A stretch of 64,000 nucleotides of DNA from Kribbella antiqua (lineage in GTDB: Bacteria; Actinomycetota; Actinomycetes; Propionibacteriales; Kribbellaceae), in the NCBI RefSeq assembly GCF_004345665.1, contig NZ_SLWR01000002.1, positions 558,001 to 622,000 on the forward strand. The letters are read 5' to 3'. Positions 3,708-59,838 of the stretch are shown piece after piece. How positions within the stretch are numbered: position 1 is the first letter of the stretch; each line of letters starts with the position of its first letter. A model generated the notes under the pieces. The model was given only the letters and a program-made list of their open reading frames with translations, made no database searches and was not told the DNA's origin. Made by a program: the position numbers and the translations under genes.

Positions 3708-4559
3708 TCACGGTTGAGTGTTCGTCAGAGCCCAGAGGGCGGCAATCAGCGGACGTCGTAGGTCTGCGCGACGGGCGCAGAGGCCGATGGTGAGCGGCTC
3801 GAGTGTTGGGCGCGCGGACAGCTCGACCAGTCGGCCAACAGAGGTCGAGGACTCCAGCACGAGGCGTGGCACGATCCCGGTGCCGCAGCCCAGGGCCACA
3901 AGCGCAAGGAGTGCTTCATGCCCGTCGGGCTCGGCCGCGATGACCGGCTTCACCCCAGTCCGGCGGAACCACCGGAACGCCGCCTCGCGCACCAGCCCCC
4001 GTGCCGGTACGACGAACGGCCCATCCGCCGTGGACACCTCCGTACCGCGAGCGGCGACCAACACCAGATCGGTGACGGCCACGGTACGGGTCACCATCGT
4101 TTGCGGCAGACGCTTCGGGATACCCGCGACCGCAGCGTCCACCTCGCCCTCATCAAGCCGGGCCAATGCGGTCGCCGCGTCACCGGTCCTCACGTCCAGC
4201 CGGATCTGCGGGTGCGCTGACCGCAGTGGCGCGAGCAAGTCAGGCAGCAGTGCCTGGCAGGCGGTGACCGTGGCGAAGATGCGCAGGTCGCCGGCCAGTT
4301 TGGCCGGCTCGCCGGTGCCGGCGTGGTAGTCGTCCCAGAGTTGCAGAGCCTGTTCGGCGTACGACGTGAAGCGCTGACCCTCGGCGGTGAGAACTACGCC
4401 GCGCGGACCGCGGTCGAGCAGTCGCGCCCCCGCGCGTGTCTCCAGCCGCTGGATCGTCCGGGTCAGCGTCGCCGGGCTCACGTGACACTCCAGGCTGGTG
4501 CGCCCGTAGTTCAGCGTGCGCGCCAGATGCAGGAACAGCTCCAGCTCGCGATGCTCCAT
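3708..4559 (-). CDS. ilvY: LysR-family regulator resembling IlvY
   Basis: A 283-residue LysR regulator. Residues 1-60 are the winged HTH (FLHLARTLNYGRTSLECHVS, TLTRTIQRLE) and residues ~90-283 the effector-binding domain. From memory of E. coli IlvY, many blocks agree along the whole length: HVSP.TL.R.IQRLE, TGDAA.A, GE.D.A.AG.P..LP, WFRR, GHEA...LVALGCG, and a C-terminal GLCAR. IlvY senses acetohydroxy acids and activates ilvC. Here the gene diverges from a KARI gene exactly as ilvY does from ilvC in enterobacteria, with 75 bp between the starts. The ribosome binding site GGGAGGTG precedes ATG 4559. The name rests on recalled similarity plus context. Confidence 0.8.
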   Translation of the reverse strand: MEHRELELFLHLARTLNYGRTSLECHVSPATLTRTIQRLETRAGARLLDRGPRGVVLTAEGQRFTSYAEQALQLWDDYHAGTGEPAKLAGDLRIFATVTACQALLPDLLAPLRSAHPQIRLDVRTGDAATALARLDEGEVDAAVAGIPKRLPQTMVTRTVAVTDLVLVAARGTEVSTADGPFVVPARGLVREAAFRWFRRTGVKPVIAAEPDGHEALLALVALGCGTGIVPRLVLESSTSVGRLVELSARPTLEPLTIGLCARRADLRRPLIAALWALTNTQP

Positions 4560-7734: not shown

Positions 7735-9186
7735 ATGACCGACCCCCGGCTCACCAACGAAGACCTGGCGCCGCTGAAGAAACAAACCTGGGGCAGCTAC
7801 AACATCTTCGCGTTCTGGATGTCCGACGTGCACAGCGTCGGCGGCTACCTGACCGCCGGCAGCCTGTTCGCCCTCGGCTTGACCAGCTGGCAGGTGTTCG
7901 TCTGCCTGATCGCCGGCATCTGCCTGGTGCAGTTCTTCTGCAACCTGGTCGCCAAACCCAGCCAGGTCACGGGCGTTCCGTATCCGGTGATCAGCCGCGT
8001 CTCCTTCGGCGTACTCGGCGCCAACATCCCGGCGATCATCCGCGGCCTGATCGCGGTCGCCTGGTATGGCGTGCAGACCTTCCTCGCCGCGGAGTCGCTG
8101 AACATCGTGTTCCTCAAGCTCTGGCCCGGGCTCGGCCCCTGGGCGGATGCCGACGTCCACGGCTTCCTCGGGCTGTCGCTGCTCGGCTACGTCAGCTTCG
8201 CGATCCTCTGGGTCGCCCAGGCCGCGCTGTTCTGGCGCGGGATGGAGACGATCCGCAAGTTCATCGACCTGGCCGGCCCGGCGGTCTACGTGACCATGCT
8301 GGCGCTCTGCATCTACCTGCTGGTCAAATCGGACTTCGCCATCGACCTCAACCTGTCCAACCACACCCTGTCCGGCTGGACCACCGTCGGCACGATGCTC
8401 GGCGCGATCGCCCTGGTCGTCTCGTACTTCTCCGGTCCGATGCTCAACTTCGGCGACTTCGCCCGGTACGGCAAGAGCTTCGACAGCGTGAAGAAGGGCA
8501 ACTTCTGGGGACTGCCGGTCAACTTCGTCTTCTTCTCGCTGCTGACCGTCCTCACCGCCGGCGCCACGGTCCCGGTGTACGGCGAACTCCTCACCGACCC
8601 GATCAAGACGGTCGAGCGGATCGACAGCACCTTCGCGATCCTGCTCGGCGCGGCCACCTTCGTCACCGCGACCGTCGGCATCAACATCGTGGCGAACTTC
8701 ATCTCCCCCGCGTTCGACTTCTCCCACGTCAGCCCGCAGAAGATCAGCTGGCGGATGGGCGGCATGATCGCGGCCGTCGGGTCAGTCATCCTCACCCCGT
8801 GGAACTGGTACAACAACGACACCGCGATCCACTACACGCTCGGCATCCTCGGTGCGCTGATCGGCCCGCTGTTCGGGATCCTGATCGCGGACTTCTACCT
8901 GATCCGCAAGCAGAAGGTGGTCGTGGACGACCTGTTCACGATGGAGGAGAGCGGCGAGTACTACTACCGCAAGGGCTACAACCCGGTCGCGGTTCAGTCG
9001 GTGATCGCCGCCGGTCTCGTCTCGGTCGCCTCGGTGCTGGTGCCGCGCTGGATCGGTACGGCGCTGTGGATCAGCGACTACAGCTGGTTCATCGGCTGCG
9101 GCATCGGCTTCGCCGTCTACACGGTGCTGGCGAAACGTGCTGACGTCGGCGCGAGGGTCGCCGTACCGGCAACTGCGGCGGCGTGA
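7735..9186 (+). CDS. NCS1-family cytosine/purine/allantoin-type permease
   Basis: A 483-residue inner-membrane symporter with about 12 hydrophobic segments. The N-terminal block WGSYNIFAFWMSDVHSVGGY is characteristic of nucleobase:cation symporter-1 transporters, and the WYGVQTFLAAESLNI segment and the central GPMLNFGDFARYGKSF block also fit. Length agrees with the family (about 450-500). Substrates of the family include cytosine, uracil, allantoin and hydantoins. The adjoining racemase suggests allantoin or a 5-substituted hydantoin, but this cannot be settled here. AGGAG lies 8 nt before ATG 7735. The stop overlaps the start region of the next gene, so both are likely co-transcribed. Confidence 0.9.
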   Translation: MTDPRLTNEDLAPLKKQTWGSYNIFAFWMSDVHSVGGYLTAGSLFALGLTSWQVFVCLIAGICLVQFFCNLVAKPSQVTGVPYPVISRVSFGVLGANIPAIIRGLIAVAWYGVQTFLAAESLNIVFLKLWPGLGPWADADVHGFLGLSLLGYVSFAILWVAQAALFWRGMETIRKFIDLAGPAVYVTMLALCIYLLVKSDFAIDLNLSNHTLSGWTTVGTMLGAIALVVSYFSGPMLNFGDFARYGKSFDSVKKGNFWGLPVNFVFFSLLTVLTAGATVPVYGELLTDPIKTVERIDSTFAILLGAATFVTATVGINIVANFISPAFDFSHVSPQKISWRMGGMIAAVGSVILTPWNWYNNDTAIHYTLGILGALIGPLFGILIADFYLIRKQKVVVDDLFTMEESGEYYYRKGYNPVAVQSVIAAGLVSVASVLVPRWIGTALWISDYSWFIGCGIGFAVYTVLAKRADVGARVAVPATAAA

Positions 9187-30547: not shown

Positions 30548-30561
30548 TAGCATGCAACGCA
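30548..30561 (+). promoter_or_regulatory. Leaderless promoter -10 that decides the GH3 start
   Basis: TAGCAT (30548-30553) lies 7 nt before ATG 30561. It overlaps the alternative ATG 30552, which would therefore be upstream of the predicted transcript. Confidence 0.45.
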
Positions 30562-32978
30562 TGAGCCCGACACCCGGTGACTTCGAAGAACTGCTCGGCC
30601 GCCTCACGCTCGAGGAGAAGGTCCGGATCCTGACCGGCCAGGACTTCTGGTCCACCCATCCGCTGCCCGGGATCGGGCTGCGGTCGATGGTTCTGTCCGA
30701 CGGTCCGAGCGGCGTGCGCGGTGCCGTCTGGGACGAGCGCGACCCGTCGCTCAACCTCCCGTCGGCGACCGCGCTCGCGTCGTCCTGGGACGTCGGCATC
30801 GCCCATCAGTACGGCGTCGTGTCGGGCCTCGAGGCCCGTCGCAAGGGCGTGGACGTCGTACTCGGGCCGACGATCAACCTGCATCGGTCACCACTCGGCG
30901 GGCGGCACTTCGAGGCGTTCAGCGAGGACCCAGTGCTGACGTCGGAGCTCGCCGCCGCCTACGTGTCCGGTGTGCAGGAGCTCGGTGTCGGCGCGACGCC
31001 GAAGCACTACATCGCGAACGACTTCGAGACCGAGCGCTTCACCGCCGACGTGGTGGTGAGCGAGCGGGCGCTGCGCGAGCTGTACCTGCTGGCGTTCGAG
31101 AAGGCTGTCACCGAGGCCAAGGCATGGCTGGTGATGAGCTCGTACAACTCCATCAACGGCGCCACCGCGTCGGAGAACGAACTGCTCGAGACCCCGCTCA
31201 ACACCGACTGGGGTTTCGACGGCGTCGTGGTCAGCGACTGGACCGCCGTACGCAGTCTGGAAAGCGCCAAGCACTCCCAGGACCTGGCGATGCCCGGGCC
31301 GGTGGGTGCGTGGGGTGACGCGCTGGTCGAGGCGGTGCGCTCCGGGGAGATCAAGGAGGACGCGATCGACCGGAAGGTGCTGCGGATCATCGCGCTCGGC
31401 GCCCGCGTCGGTGCGCTCGAAGGTTTCGAAAAGCCGGCATCAGTGCCGGACGTGGACGGCGTCGCTTTCGCTCGTACGGCGGCCGCCGAGGGCTCGGTGC
31501 TCGTGCGGAACACCGGCGAGCTGCCGTGGGACGCGTCGGCGTTGTCGCGGGTGGCGATCATCGGGCACAACGCGCAGCACGCGCGCACCCAGGGTGGCGG
31601 CAGCGCGACCGTCATCCCGTCCTCGGTTGTCTCCCCGCTCGACGGTTTGCGTACGGCGCTTCCTGGTGTCGACGTGACGTACTCCGTCGGGGCCGTCGTA
31701 CAGGAAGGCATCGCGGAGCTGCCGCTGGAGTCGATGGTCAACCCATCAACTGGGAAGCACGGCGCGCGGGTGCGATTCCTCGATGCCAACGGGGTCGAGT
31801 TGTTCGCGGAGGACCGGTTCTCGAGTGCGCTCGTTTATATCGGTGGTGGGGCGCCGATCGGTCAGACGTCGACCTTCGAGTTCCGTACGACGTATACGCC
31901 GTCGGAGAGCGGCACGATCCTGCTCGGCTTCGCGTCCGTCGGTCTGGGGCGGATCTTCGTCGACGGCACGCTGGCGCGCGAGGTCACCGCCGTACCTGAA
32001 GGCAAGGATCTCGCCGAGATCATGCTCGCTCCGCCGTCGGTCTCTACGCCGGTCGAGGTCACCGCGGGCCAATCGATCGACGTCCGGGTTGAGCTCGAAT
32101 TGGAAAAGCACGAGGGTGCGTTCGCCGACGCCATGGCCATCACGGTCGGCGTCGAGCCCGACCGCTCCAACCCCCAGGCGCTGATCGACGAGGCCGTCGC
32201 CGCCGCCCGCGCCGCAGAGGTCGCGGTCGTGGTGGTCGGCACCAACTCGAAGGTCGAATCCGAGGGCTACGACCGTACGACGCTGGCGCTTCCAGGTCTG
32301 CAGGACGACTTGGTCCGCGCCGTCGCTCTGGTGAATCCGCGGACTGTGGTTGTCGTGAACGCCGGCTCGCCTGTGCTGATGCCGTGGCGCGATGAGGTGG
32401 CCGCCGTACTGGTGACGTACTTCGGTGGGCAGGAGTACGGCAACGCGTTGGCCGACGTACTGCTCGGCGTCGTGGAGCCGGGCGGCCGTCTCCCGACCAC
32501 CTGGGCGCGGGAGGAGTCCGACGTACCGGTCATCGACGTGACCCCGCGCAACGGGATCGTCCGGTACGACGAGGGCATCCACATCGGCTACCGAGCTTGG
32601 CTCCGGGCCGGCACCGAGCCCGCCTACGAGTTCGGCCACGGCCTCGGCTACACCACCTGGTCCCTCAGCGACCTTGCCGCGAGTCAATCCGCTGTGTCGG
32701 TCAACGTCACCAACACCGGCGAACGGTCCGGCAAGCACGTCATCCAGGTATACGCCGAACGCCCCGAAACCACCGTCGACCGCCCGGTGCGTTGGCTGGC
32801 CGGCTTCACCGTCGTACGCCTAGACGCCGGCGAATCCACCGAGGCCACCATCGACCTACAACCCCACACGTTCCAACACTGGGACAACGGCTGGACCACC
32901 GAACCCGGCACCTTCACCCTCCACGCCGGCTCCTCAGTCACCAACCTCCCCTTGTCGACAACCATCCAGGTCGACTAA
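30561..32978 (+). CDS. GH3 beta-glucosidase with PA14 insertion
   Basis: An 805-residue cytosolic glycosidase with no signal peptide. The N-terminal GH3 barrel has LTLEEKVRILTGQDFWST, the substrate-binding VVLGPTINLHRSPLGGRHFE and KHYIANDFETER, and the catalytic nucleophile in GVVVSDWTAV. A PA14-like beta domain is inserted around residues 400-530 (FRTTYTPSESGTILLGFASV). The GH3 C-terminal alpha/beta sandwich and a fibronectin-like end (YEFGHGLGYTTWS, FTVVRLDAGESTEATIDL) follow. PA14 insertion is known in beta-glucosidases acting on short oligosaccharides. It is controlled by the divergent TetR gene and followed by a strong terminator. The specific linkage is not predictable. Confidence 0.92.
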   Translation: MSPTPGDFEELLGRLTLEEKVRILTGQDFWSTHPLPGIGLRSMVLSDGPSGVRGAVWDERDPSLNLPSATALASSWDVGIAHQYGVVSGLEARRKGVDVVLGPTINLHRSPLGGRHFEAFSEDPVLTSELAAAYVSGVQELGVGATPKHYIANDFETERFTADVVVSERALRELYLLAFEKAVTEAKAWLVMSSYNSINGATASENELLETPLNTDWGFDGVVVSDWTAVRSLESAKHSQDLAMPGPVGAWGDALVEAVRSGEIKEDAIDRKVLRIIALGARVGALEGFEKPASVPDVDGVAFARTAAAEGSVLVRNTGELPWDASALSRVAIIGHNAQHARTQGGGSATVIPSSVVSPLDGLRTALPGVDVTYSVGAVVQEGIAELPLESMVNPSTGKHGARVRFLDANGVELFAEDRFSSALVYIGGGAPIGQTSTFEFRTTYTPSESGTILLGFASVGLGRIFVDGTLAREVTAVPEGKDLAEIMLAPPSVSTPVEVTAGQSIDVRVELELEKHEGAFADAMAITVGVEPDRSNPQALIDEAVAAARAAEVAVVVVGTNSKVESEGYDRTTLALPGLQDDLVRAVALVNPRTVVVVNAGSPVLMPWRDEVAAVLVTYFGGQEYGNALADVLLGVVEPGGRLPTTWAREESDVPVIDVTPRNGIVRYDEGIHIGYRAWLRAGTEPAYEFGHGLGYTTWSLSDLAASQSAVSVNVTNTGERSGKHVIQVYAERPETTVDRPVRWLAGFTVVRLDAGESTEATIDLQPHTFQHWDNGWTTEPGTFTLHAGSSVTNLPLSTTIQVD

Positions 32979-32987
32979 CCCCTATCG

Positions 32988-33022
32988 GTTCGCGGCGGGC
33001 CCGCTGCCCGCCCGCCGCGAAC
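32988..33022 (+). terminator. Strong hairpin terminator after the GH3 gene
   Basis: A perfect 13-bp stem, GTTCGCGGCGGGC paired with GCCCGCCGCGAAC, with a 9-nt loop, 9 bp after the GH3 stop. It has no U-tract, as is common in high-GC actinobacteria. Confidence 0.75.
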
Positions 33023-33073
33023 TACTCCCGTGCCGGGGCGTCAGAGCTGCAGGCGGGGCGGCGCTGCTCCGGT

Positions 33074-33279
33074 CGTACGACGGATCGCCCGAGACGAAGG
33101 TGTGGTCGAGGGCGCGGCGCCGGGCGTACGACGGATAGCGCGAGACGAAGGTGTGGTCGAGGGCGCGACTCCGGGCGTACGACGGAATGCCCGAGACGAA
33201 GGTGTGGTCGAGGGCGCTGCTCCGGGCGTACGACGGAATGCGCGAGCCGAAGGTGTGTGGTCGAGGGCGCGGCTCCGGG
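33074..33279. repeat. 51-bp tandem repeat, four copies
   Basis: Units at 33074-33124, 33125-33175, 33176-33226 and 33227-33279. The last has a 2-bp GT expansion. Each begins CGTACGACGG and ends GGGCGCGGCTCCGGG or close to it; units differ at about 3-6 positions. The bases just before unit 1 resemble a repeat end, so a partial fifth copy may exist. The unit is 17 codons long and open in more than one frame, but I see no gene. Confidence 0.85.
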
Positions 33280-33295
33280 CTGCGTGAGGGTGCTA

Positions 33296-33376
33296 GTCCG
33301 GCCGGTGGGTGTCAAGGGCGCCTCCTTCGTCGGCGTCGCTGCGCGATCTTCGACCCTTGACACCCACCACCCGGAC
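33296..33376. repeat. Long inverted repeat (cruciform/REP-like)
   Basis: Arms GTCCGG-cc-GGTGGGTGTCAAGGG (33296-33318) and its complement CCCTTGACACCCACC-ac-CCGGAC (33354-33376) pair over 21 of 23 positions around a 35-nt GC-rich centre. The central 15 bp are perfect. It lies 17 bp after the tandem repeat. It could be a bidirectional terminator, a REP-type element or a structured RNA. Confidence 0.8.
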
Positions 33377-33506
33377 CAGGGAAGGACGCAGCTATCCCGG
33401 AGCTGCTCACCCGAGTGGTCGCGTGCCGGGGTGGATCCGGGTGGTGCGGCCGTGAAGCGTGCGGACCGGGTCGTTCGGCACCGGAGGTGGCTGTCGGGCC
33501 GGGCCC

Positions 33507-33564
33507 GATAGCGGGTTATGTGACGGCTGACGGTTTATTGGGCGCTATCGATCAAACAACCCGC
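33507..33564. other. Two overlapping, mutually exclusive stems
   Basis: GATAGC (33507-33512) can pair with GCTATC (33544-33549), or GCGGGTT (33511-33517) with AACCCGC (33558-33564). The 5' arms share two bases, so the full stems exclude each other, the geometry of a switch or of a pseudoknot. No downstream gene on the plus strand is evident. Confidence 0.4.
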
Positions 33565-33658
33565 CATCGAGCCGGCGAATCAGCCCTAGTGCCCGGGATA
33601 TGGCCGGTTTCGTCCGGATGCCGGGATCGGCCGGACCTGGCACAAGAAGCCGGGGCCC

Positions 33659-33680
33659 GACACAGGTTATTTCCTGTGTC
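33659..33680. terminator. Hairpin with 8-bp perfect stem
   Basis: GACACAGG-TTATTT-CCTGTGTC. Further CCTGTGTC and CCTGTCCC words follow within 40 bp. It is a possible terminator for the convergent TetR gene or part of a structured RNA. Confidence 0.4.
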
Positions 33681-33866
33681 CGCCCCCCAGTACCTGTGTC
33701 AGTCCACCAGCACCTGTCCCAACCCACCCAGGCGACCCCACCCCAACCCGCCAAGCACACAGACCACCCGGAGCTAAAACCATCCACCTCGACCAGCACA
33801 CTCACGCAGCGAAGCCCGCGGACAATCACCTCCGTCTAAACGCGAGACAAACCCGCACCCAAAAGA

Positions 33867-34517
33867 TCAGGCGGCGGGGAGGTCGTCCAGGCTTGGGAGC
33901 GGAGCCTGGCTGAGCGAACGCGCCTCCTCGGGCGGGAGGCCGAACATGCGCAGCAGATCCTCGGCGATCTGGTCTGTGGCGGTGGCGTCGTCGCGGTCCG
34001 GGCGGTCGAGGAGGAGCTGACCGAGGGCGAGCAGGGCCCCGCCGGCGATGACGACGGCGAGCTCTGGGTCCTGGGCGGTGAAGCGGCCGGAGTCGATCGC
34101 CGCCTGCAGGTCGCGGATCGCGCGCGGCGCCAGACCGCGCCCCGACGTGATCAGCTCGGTCCCGCTGCGGAGCAGCACCCGGCTCAGCTGCGGCGCCTTC
34201 CGATGCAGCCGCCCAGTCAGCCGGAAGCTCCGCGCGAACGTCTCGGCCGGGTCGTCAGACGACTCACCAAGCGAATCCAGTACGGCGCCGTGCGCCTCGA
34301 GCGCAGCGTCGACAGCGGCCGAGAACAGCTCGTCCTTGGTTTGGAAGTGGTTGTAGAACGAGCCCATCCCGACATCCGCCGCCTTGGTGATCTCCAGTAT
34401 CGGCACGTTCAGGTTGCCGTCGGCGATGAAGGTCTGAGCTGCATGTACGAGCGCCGCCCGGGTGCGCATCTTGCGCCGCTCCAGGCGGTTCGGCTCTGGC
34501 TTGGCGTCGGCTGCCAT
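33867..34517 (-). CDS. TetR-family regulator
   Basis: A 216-residue repressor started at ATG 34517. TAGGGT lies 8 nt upstream and fits a leaderless start; the frame to 34535 is open but lacks support. Residues ~15-62 are the HTH (RMKMRTRAALVHAAQ-like, then LEITKAADVGMGSFYNHFQT). The rest is helical, with LSRVLLRSGTELITSGRGL and a Leu/Ala-rich dimer region. A palindrome at 34538-34555 probably gives autoregulation. No obvious divergent target exists; the next gene is an ArsR-type regulator reading the same way. Confidence 0.88.
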   Translation of the reverse strand: MAADAKPEPNRLERRKMRTRAALVHAAQTFIADGNLNVPILEITKAADVGMGSFYNHFQTKDELFSAAVDAALEAHGAVLDSLGESSDDPAETFARSFRLTGRLHRKAPQLSRVLLRSGTELITSGRGLAPRAIRDLQAAIDSGRFTAQDPELAVVIAGGALLALGQLLLDRPDRDDATATDQIAEDLLRMFGLPPEEARSLSQAPLPSLDDLPAA

Positions 34518-34537
34518 GGCACGAAACCCTAGCATTC

Positions 34538-59316: not shown

Positions 59317-59325
59317 ATCAGCGGA

Positions 59326-59838
59326 TCAGGCGGCGGGGAGGTCGAAGATCAGGCAGGTGGAGGTCGCGTGGGCCAGTAGCGTGCCGCGCTCGTCCAGGAG
59401 GCGGGATTCGGCGACGGCAGTACGACGGCCGCGGTTGATGATGGCGCCTTCGCAGCGGAGCAGGCCGGACGCGACGGTGACCGGCTTGATGAAGCGCGTC
59501 ATCAGGTCGAGCGACGTGTAGCCGACGCCGGCCGGCAGCGTCGAGTGAACCGTGCAGCCGGCGGCCGTGTCGAGCAGGGTCGCGATGATGCCGCCGTGCA
59601 CAGTGCCGAGCGGGTTGTAGTGGAACTCCTGCGCCGGCATCAGCACGGCGACCCGGCCTTCCTCGACCTCGAATCCGGTCCCGCCGACCAGCTGCAGGAT
59701 CGGCGGCGGCGGGATCTCCCCGTCCCGCATCGCCCGCAGCATCTCCAGCCCGGAGGTCGATCCGACCCGCGCCGCCGTCAGCGCCGGATCCGACCACGAG
59801 AACGTACGGCTGCGGCTCGCCTGCTGCGTCCCGGTCAT
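59326..59838 (-). CDS. PaaI-family hotdog thioesterase
   Basis: A 170-residue acyl-CoA thioesterase of the hotdog fold. The signature HNPLGTVHGGIIATLLDTA appears as FHYNPLGTVHGGIIATLLDT, with the catalytic region's Asn and the acid in the following helix (LLDTAAG). Further blocks are YTSLDLMTRFIKPVTVASGL and AVAESRLLDERGTLLAHATS. GGGAGG precedes ATG 59838. It diverges from an HxlR-type regulator and probably removes aromatic or short acyl groups from CoA; the actual acyl chain is unknown. Confidence 0.92.
   Translation of the reverse strand: MTGTQQASRSRTFSWSDPALTAARVGSTSGLEMLRAMRDGEIPPPPILQLVGGTGFEVEEGRVAVLMPAQEFHYNPLGTVHGGIIATLLDTAAGCTVHSTLPAGVGYTSLDLMTRFIKPVTVASGLLRCEGAIINRGRRTAVAESRLLDERGTLLAHATSTCLIFDLPAA

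Follow-up and report, generated by a model that had tools for sequence, protein, structure and literature searches.

A dispersed, inserted non-coding element of Kribbella with possible kinship to rolling-circle replication hairpins

What fills the gap between two convergent genes of Kribbella antiqua at positions 33023–33866 of the window (the whole stretch of 64,000 nucleotides that was analysed)? The island is almost certainly one copy of a dispersed, inserted element. In the preferred reading, to which a probability of about 0.5 is assigned, it is what partial deletion has left of one copy of a non-coding, non-autonomous element whose ends come from a hairpin resembling the single-strand origins of rolling-circle replicons. 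An earlier description prepared from the letters alone (the original prediction) had taken the island for a structured, non-coding one with a function at the level of DNA or RNA; it was right in that the island is non-coding and non-random, a feature of the DNA and a repeated palindromic element. The intergenic island is no longer unexplained: it belongs to a defined family of repeats, whose link to the replication of actinomycete integrative and conjugative elements (AICEs) can be tested.

Extent, coding content and parts of the island

The features of the locus are collated in Table 1. In the window genome (28 contigs, 8.1 Mb) the GH3 and TetR genes converge on the island, and the gap between them measures 888 bp. 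The left limit of the island directly follows the terminator-like hairpin, which is taken as old intergenic DNA immediately outside the element; the right limit is the TetR stop codon. The limits originally proposed are close to the true ones, the interval being missing at the orthologous site of another Kribbella genome (G032). Separately, two called genes were seen to share 21 identical bases at their 3' ends (33865–33885 and 59324–59344).

Table 1. Coordinates of the island, its parts and its neighbours in the window.
Feature	Position	Strand	Remark
GH3 gene	30552–32978	+	named by Pfam
Terminator-like perfect hairpin	32988–33022	.	13/13 bp, 3' of GH3 gene
Whole inserted element (truncated copy)	33023–33866	.	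missing at syntenic site of G032 (L108); dispersed copies
Tandem array T, 51-bp unit	33060–33280	.	4.3 copies
Possible 5' arm of outer stem around hairpin A	33269–33279	+	GCGGCTCCGGG
Hairpin A, long stem with three apical mini-hairpins	33292–33380	+ (modelled strand)	- strand bears GNA triloops
Conserved motif just outside hairpin A	33388–33396	+	GCAGCTATC; common to AICE-type copies, outside model
Possible 3' arm of outer stem	33396–33406	+	CCCGGAGCTGC
Central 64-bp quasi-palindrome	33506–33569	+	most widespread part of element
Companion block	33570–33634	+	3' of palindrome in many copies
Internal 20-bp repeats	33673–33728	.	2.8 copies
Remnant of inverted second hairpin A'	33791–33810	-	20 nt, 90% complementary to 33279–33298
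Outer right end of element	33811–33866	.	adjoins A' in other copies (L044, L045, L046, L047)
TetR gene	33867–34535	-	named by Pfam

No ORF of the island looks coding, in agreement with the claim that it holds no credible gene. Five of the six ORFs tested gave no Pfam match (E 0.01), and the sixth (33030–33287, + strand) reached 41.9 bits with E3_binding (PF02817) only in sum, no single stretch passing. A coding origin of the 51-bp repeats in this frame was considered and rejected: a 2-bp insertion is carried by the last unit, and different tandem units stand at this place in other species. The resemblance to PF02817 is taken as incidental. Indels among copies of the element are not multiples of three, and the weak ORFs that a crude gene caller marked inside some copies (mostly GC3 0.72–0.77) were not accepted as genes.

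The 51-bp repeats and the adjacent long inverted repeat that had been described are both present. The array has a period of 51 with 90% match, and a 26-nt family within it recurs at spacings of 51, 51 and 53, the last reflecting the inserted 2 bp. The inverted repeat has 26-nt arms (33293–33318 and 33354–33379, 88% complementary, 35 nt between them) and lies within hairpin A. The array has a second strong copy in the genome (C9:287925–288143, 86%), which likewise adjoins hairpin A. The further hairpins that had been announced held up in part: as RNA, the stretch 33480–33640 has no more than ordinary stability (z −0.67; 43 of 200 shuffles folded as well), but it does contain the 64-bp quasi-palindrome, which is repeated across the genome. 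The plan of fuller copies is tandem repeats, hairpin A, the quasi-palindrome, an inverted hairpin A' and tandem repeats again. A' is present in copy L044 and is mostly missing from the window copy.

Copies, insertion sites and gene context

Far from lacking copies and conservation, the outcome that the original prediction had named as fatal to itself, the island has relatives in many Kribbella. In the window genome hairpin A (33280–33390) occurs at no fewer than nine places, the window included, with 78–100% identity, and the quasi-palindrome at 28 or more (window included, 56 strand matches); both counts are lower bounds because the first-look candidates were scored in part. The segment 33390–33866 gave 39 matches including itself, many of them covering the palindrome only. 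Copies were also met at contig ends (contig C26 and genome G030). The segment 33270–33640 had no match in the plasmid collection or the phage collection.

The palindrome was modelled by sequence only (model R1), since RNAalifold gave no pair for it. R1 matched 22 of the 58 genomes searched, all of them among the 37 Kribbella genomes, and 24 of the 31 named records with palindrome-pattern matches are Kribbella. Pattern matches of the palindrome type were also seen in three Streptomyces and four cyanobacterial records (L119, L122, L124, L128, L130, L133 and L137). A second model, R2, built from element copies alone, found hairpin A in at least 27 of 38 Kribbella genomes and an A-type hairpin in at least 37 of 293 genomes and at least 9 of 37 genera across the order Propionibacteriales. 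Within the order, one genome outside Kribbella (G049, contig C1; L249 and nine others) holds at least ten A-type hairpin places, longer than those of Kribbella and perhaps a dispersed family of their own. In another genus of the order (L261, G062:C2:389000–404000), two A-type hairpins lie on opposite strands 0.37 kb apart (7836–7924 and 8293–8379), possibly a small relative of the element.

In G020, G036, G024 and G027 copies of hairpin A stand as inverted pairs spanning about 0.7–1.4 kb, and the inverted arms align over about 120–250 bp within single copies. Five copies in G036 are 91–97% alike over 0.96–1.12 kb. The tandem units, compared by eye, vary in length and sequence between species.

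The element is inserted at two orthologous sites, where it is present in some genomes and absent from others. At the site of the window copy, the same convergent GH3 and TetR genes stand 68 bp apart in G032, with a short simple hairpin of its own between them. The second site lies between a serine hydrolase and a MarR family gene (identities assigned by us from the translations) and was matched in 33 of 38 genomes; the spacers were read in 25 of these 33. It is occupied in G036 and G024, with stop-to-stop spacers of 1149 and 1331 bp. Thirteen genomes have no room for the element: the stop codons overlap by four bases in ten of them, and the spacers are 0, 4 and 13 bp in the other three. Ten further genomes (G028 included) have spacers of about 0.1–2 kb without a match to the element. 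In G028 a different insert, 184 bp in length and with a long hairpin, occupies the convergent junction that holds the element in G036 and G024 (L221, G028:C1:1754800–1756100). Even with empty sites at hand, the degenerate tandem arrays at both ends of the element prevented the reading of any clean target-site duplication. Among the loci read, none carried an autonomous partner sharing these ends.

These observations bear on the most serious rival, an ordinary MITE, that is, a deletion derivative of a DDE cut-and-paste transposon in which the hairpin ends are incidental and the likeness to AICEs is borrowed or convergent. Terminal inverted repeats are found as A/A' pairs (in the window as a 20-nt remnant), the element is short (about 0.7–1.4 kb) and free of ORFs, and it is present or absent at two sites, all as expected of a MITE. 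Instead of fixed termini, however, there are variable tandem arrays at the outer ends, no transposase-bearing relative was met among the loci read, and the hairpin, the loops and the GCAGCTATC motif common to AICE-type copies (see below) would be left unexplained. A MITE is considered rather unlikely.

The sites are biased in their gene context. Convergent genes flank 24 of the 37 classifiable sites (9 tandem, 4 divergent; 4 of the 41 sites unclassifiable, palindrome-only copies being included in the 41), against 12 of 51 in the window (27 tandem, 12 divergent; Fisher p 1.6e-4), with the context taken from a simple, crude GC3-based gene caller and a small background of one window. When L060, which matches the 20-bp-repeat part only, and one of L176 and L178, which are one locus in two genomes, were left out, 22 of 35 sites were convergent (p 3.3e-4). 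Many copies lie within tens of bases of the end of a neighbouring gene.

Such a distribution would suit a bidirectional terminator or boundary useful to the host, kept between convergent genes as its hairpins stop transcription both ways, and the conservation of hairpin A with compensatory change points the same way. Against it stand the patchy occurrence in the genus (22 of 37 genomes by R1, at least 27 of 38 by R2) and the closely spaced neighbours of element-free sites, which manage without; moreover, a convergent bias can arise from harmlessness alone. As the explanation of the island this function is judged improbable. A terminator role is nevertheless compatible with mobility.

Hairpin A, its loops and its relatives on AICEs and plasmids

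When folded as RNA, 33280–33395 reached −63.9 kcal/mol; 200 shuffles gave −46.5 ± 4.0, and none was as good (z −4.4). The long stem with three mini-hairpins is kept in 40 aligned copies of A (38 distinct): 89.0% of cells were paired versus 82.6% after shuffling (0 of 500 as good), 84 cells showed two-sided, compensatory change versus 23.8 (0 of 500), and 13 pairs had two-sided change (1 of 500), the test being favoured by a structure drawn from the very sequences tested. Sliding of the partners reduced pairing to 32–43%. A measure of further pair types was not raised (190 of 500 shuffles), and in the long stem, which has 25 positions, four are paired in no more than 57% of copies. RNAalifold alone predicted 25 pairs in A, six of them with two-sided change. 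The compensatory change could come from quasi-palindrome correction or template switching without selection.

Outside the hairpin, a set of motifs written by us (GCAGCTATC and five variants) was matched by 10 of the 16 element copies and, among the other copies, by 20 of 25; the six element copies outside the set have GCAGCTA and then TG or CG. A possible outer stem scored 12.8 with its own arms and 8.6 with mismatched arms in 20 AICE-type copies, and 6.7 with shuffled upstream arms over all 30 rows. In ten element copies the scores were 8.05 (own) and 7.79 (mismatched), and co-variation gave the outer stem no support there.

The loops bear on which strand folds. In 32 distinct non-element copies (AICE-type, plasmid and other), 100 triloop hairpins were counted. 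T-N-C loops account for 61 of them, each with a C-G closing pair; N is A in 21, T in 16, G in 15 and C in 9, and every one of the 32 copies has at least one such loop. In 40 distinct element copies the loops are T-N-C in 66 of 116 cases, 65 of them closed by C-G. Overlapping alternative hairpins are included in the counts for the copies. For comparison, the whole window has 31 T-N-C triloops closed by C-G among 1383 triloop hairpins of this kind. The complement of these loops is C(GNA)G, and it lies on the repSA-sense strand. Loops of the type d(C-GNA-G) are exceptionally stable in single-stranded DNA. T-N-C loops with N free, read as GNA on the repSA-sense strand, suggest folded single-stranded DNA. 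The first mini-hairpin is longer in the window genome and, judged by its letters, could be extended on the GNA strand by tandem G-A pairs.

An RNA, whether a structured RNA gene or a cis-regulatory one, would account for the fold of A, which is far better than that of shuffles, and for its co-variation. Still, a known structured RNA finds no backing, the window having given no Rfam match at the gathering threshold; two hairpin copies run in opposite directions within one element, the 64-bp palindrome gave no consensus RNA structure in RNAalifold, and the T-N-C loops, being GNA on the other strand, fit folded DNA. An RNA of either kind is very unlikely. Other Rfam searches returned two tRNAs and otherwise matches far below threshold; the tRNAs near some single copies are ordinary genes. 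Least credible of all is a REP/BIME-type element mobilised by RAYT (a Y1 transposase): the dispersed, partly inverted intergenic palindromes speak for it, but the units are far larger than REPs, which also speaks against a REP element in the strict sense, and PF01797 occurs in one of 38 Kribbella genomes (G032) and is absent from the window genome (G000) and the copy-rich G020, G036 and G024, by which the RAYT route is already contradicted for enzymes that PF01797 recognises.

The reading in which the ends come from an origin-like hairpin draws on the relatives of A near repSA. RepSA (PF20199) is encoded in 22 of 38 Kribbella genomes. The weaker R2 matches are mostly solitary, some standing as same-direction pairs 2–5 kb apart. 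Among the matches listed, 48 were weaker Kribbella matches (some below 70 bits); 18 of these lie within 16 kb of repSA, where 0.21 were expected, at distances of 4.5–15 kb and not beside it, and 30 have no RepSA within 16 kb on the contig. Half of the Kribbella RepSA loci (16 of 32) have a weaker match within 16 kb, and 16 do not. Each of the 22 hairpin–repSA pairs examined (18 in Kribbella, two in G157, one in G131 and one in Nocardia farcinica) has its hairpin and its gene on opposite strands; as the elements are related, the pairs are not fully independent.

At three outgroup loci, two of G157 and one of G131, the hairpin stands by a repSA and an integrase gene, and in both G157 cases it lies about 40 bp 3' of repSA. 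RepSA (PF20199) was confirmed by Pfam in L244 and L251, as was the integrase of L244. At the second G157 locus rep and integrase were identified by tblastn, and the integrase of L251, without a Pfam match, was named by position and look. An A-type hairpin also occurs near RepSA in Nocardia farcinica, and on the 8-kb plasmid pPA43082 it is found about 0.2 kb upstream of the annotated rep in the same relative orientation. In Gulosibacter molinativorax, plasmid pARLON1 (L277) has a good A-type match at 3997–4085, flanked by a hypothetical gene and a gene for a recombinase, with mobC and a relaxase gene close by.

No convincing A-type match was obtained in pMR2, in the Nonomuraea RepSA region or in 12 short Kribbella RepSA loci (about 1.5 kb flanks); in pIJ101, which bears a single-strand origin, the best match (20.6 bits, 4141–4216) lies inside an annotated gene and is likewise unconvincing. 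Copies of A are present in G030, G027 and G018, which have no PF20199 match, so RepSA is not needed for present copies. Among the papers listed, none dealt with an AICE hairpin or a Kribbella repeat, which says little. Taken together, hairpin A and the AICE hairpin probably share ancestry.

Proposed origin and comparison with known systems

According to PMC3218068, PMC4595007 and PMC4170104, rolling-circle elements have a double-strand origin that is nicked by Rep, and many also carry a single-strand origin, functional in one orientation. In the proposed scheme, hairpin A would derive from, or share ancestry with, an AICE replication hairpin that takes shape in the single strand displaced by rolling-circle replication. 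This AICE hairpin would most likely be a single-strand origin, a double-strand origin or a transfer site being possible as well. A single-strand origin fits best with its fixed orientation, its single-stranded-DNA type of fold and its number of one or two per RepSA locus, and the odds that it has this function are put at about even. Two head-to-head hairpins may then let the element be copied and moved in trans by the rolling-circle (HUH) enzymes of AICEs or plasmids; spread by such enzymes is proposed tentatively. Survival mainly between convergent genes might follow from harmlessness or from a choice of target, and the hairpins may afterwards act as terminators.

It is equally speculative that the family represents a class of gene-less, non-autonomous rolling-circle transposons that use AICE enzymes in trans and land between convergent genes, and that its hairpin belongs to an undescribed family of AICE and plasmid origins with GNA-loop mini-hairpins on a four-way junction. 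If the link to AICE replication is true, the hairpin would mark, by its structure, a site of replication in AICEs and actinobacterial plasmids, and the element would be a case of a gene-less parasite made from an origin.

Among known systems, the single-strand origins of rolling-circle plasmids and of ICEBs1 share with the hairpin a fixed orientation, a structure as single strand and a place on rolling-circle elements. In PMC4595007, sso1 of ICEBs1 lies just downstream of the relaxase gene, and the hairpin described here about 40 bp after repSA (L253 and L257). The Kribbella element differs in having two such hairpins, inverted and chromosomal, and pIJ101 lacks a convincing match. AICEs of the pSAM2/RepSA type carry the same kind of hairpin near int and/or rep, whereas rep, int, tra and any other credible gene are lacking from the window element. 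Non-autonomous Helitrons and Helentrons and IS91-like transposons are rolling-circle transposons whose ends are recognised by HUH enzymes, and the proposed mechanism would be theirs; the Kribbella element, in contrast, has inverted ends, and no HUH transposase gene is linked to it. Bacterial MITEs are short and non-coding with inverted ends, many copies and insertion polymorphism, all of which the Kribbella element shares, but its ends are tandem arrays and three-hairpin arms, and neither a transposase partner nor a target duplication was found. REP/BIME sequences, finally, are dispersed intergenic palindromes associated with RAYT; the Kribbella element resembles them in its dispersed intergenic palindromes and differs from them in size, in anatomy and in the absence of PF01797 from copy-rich genomes.
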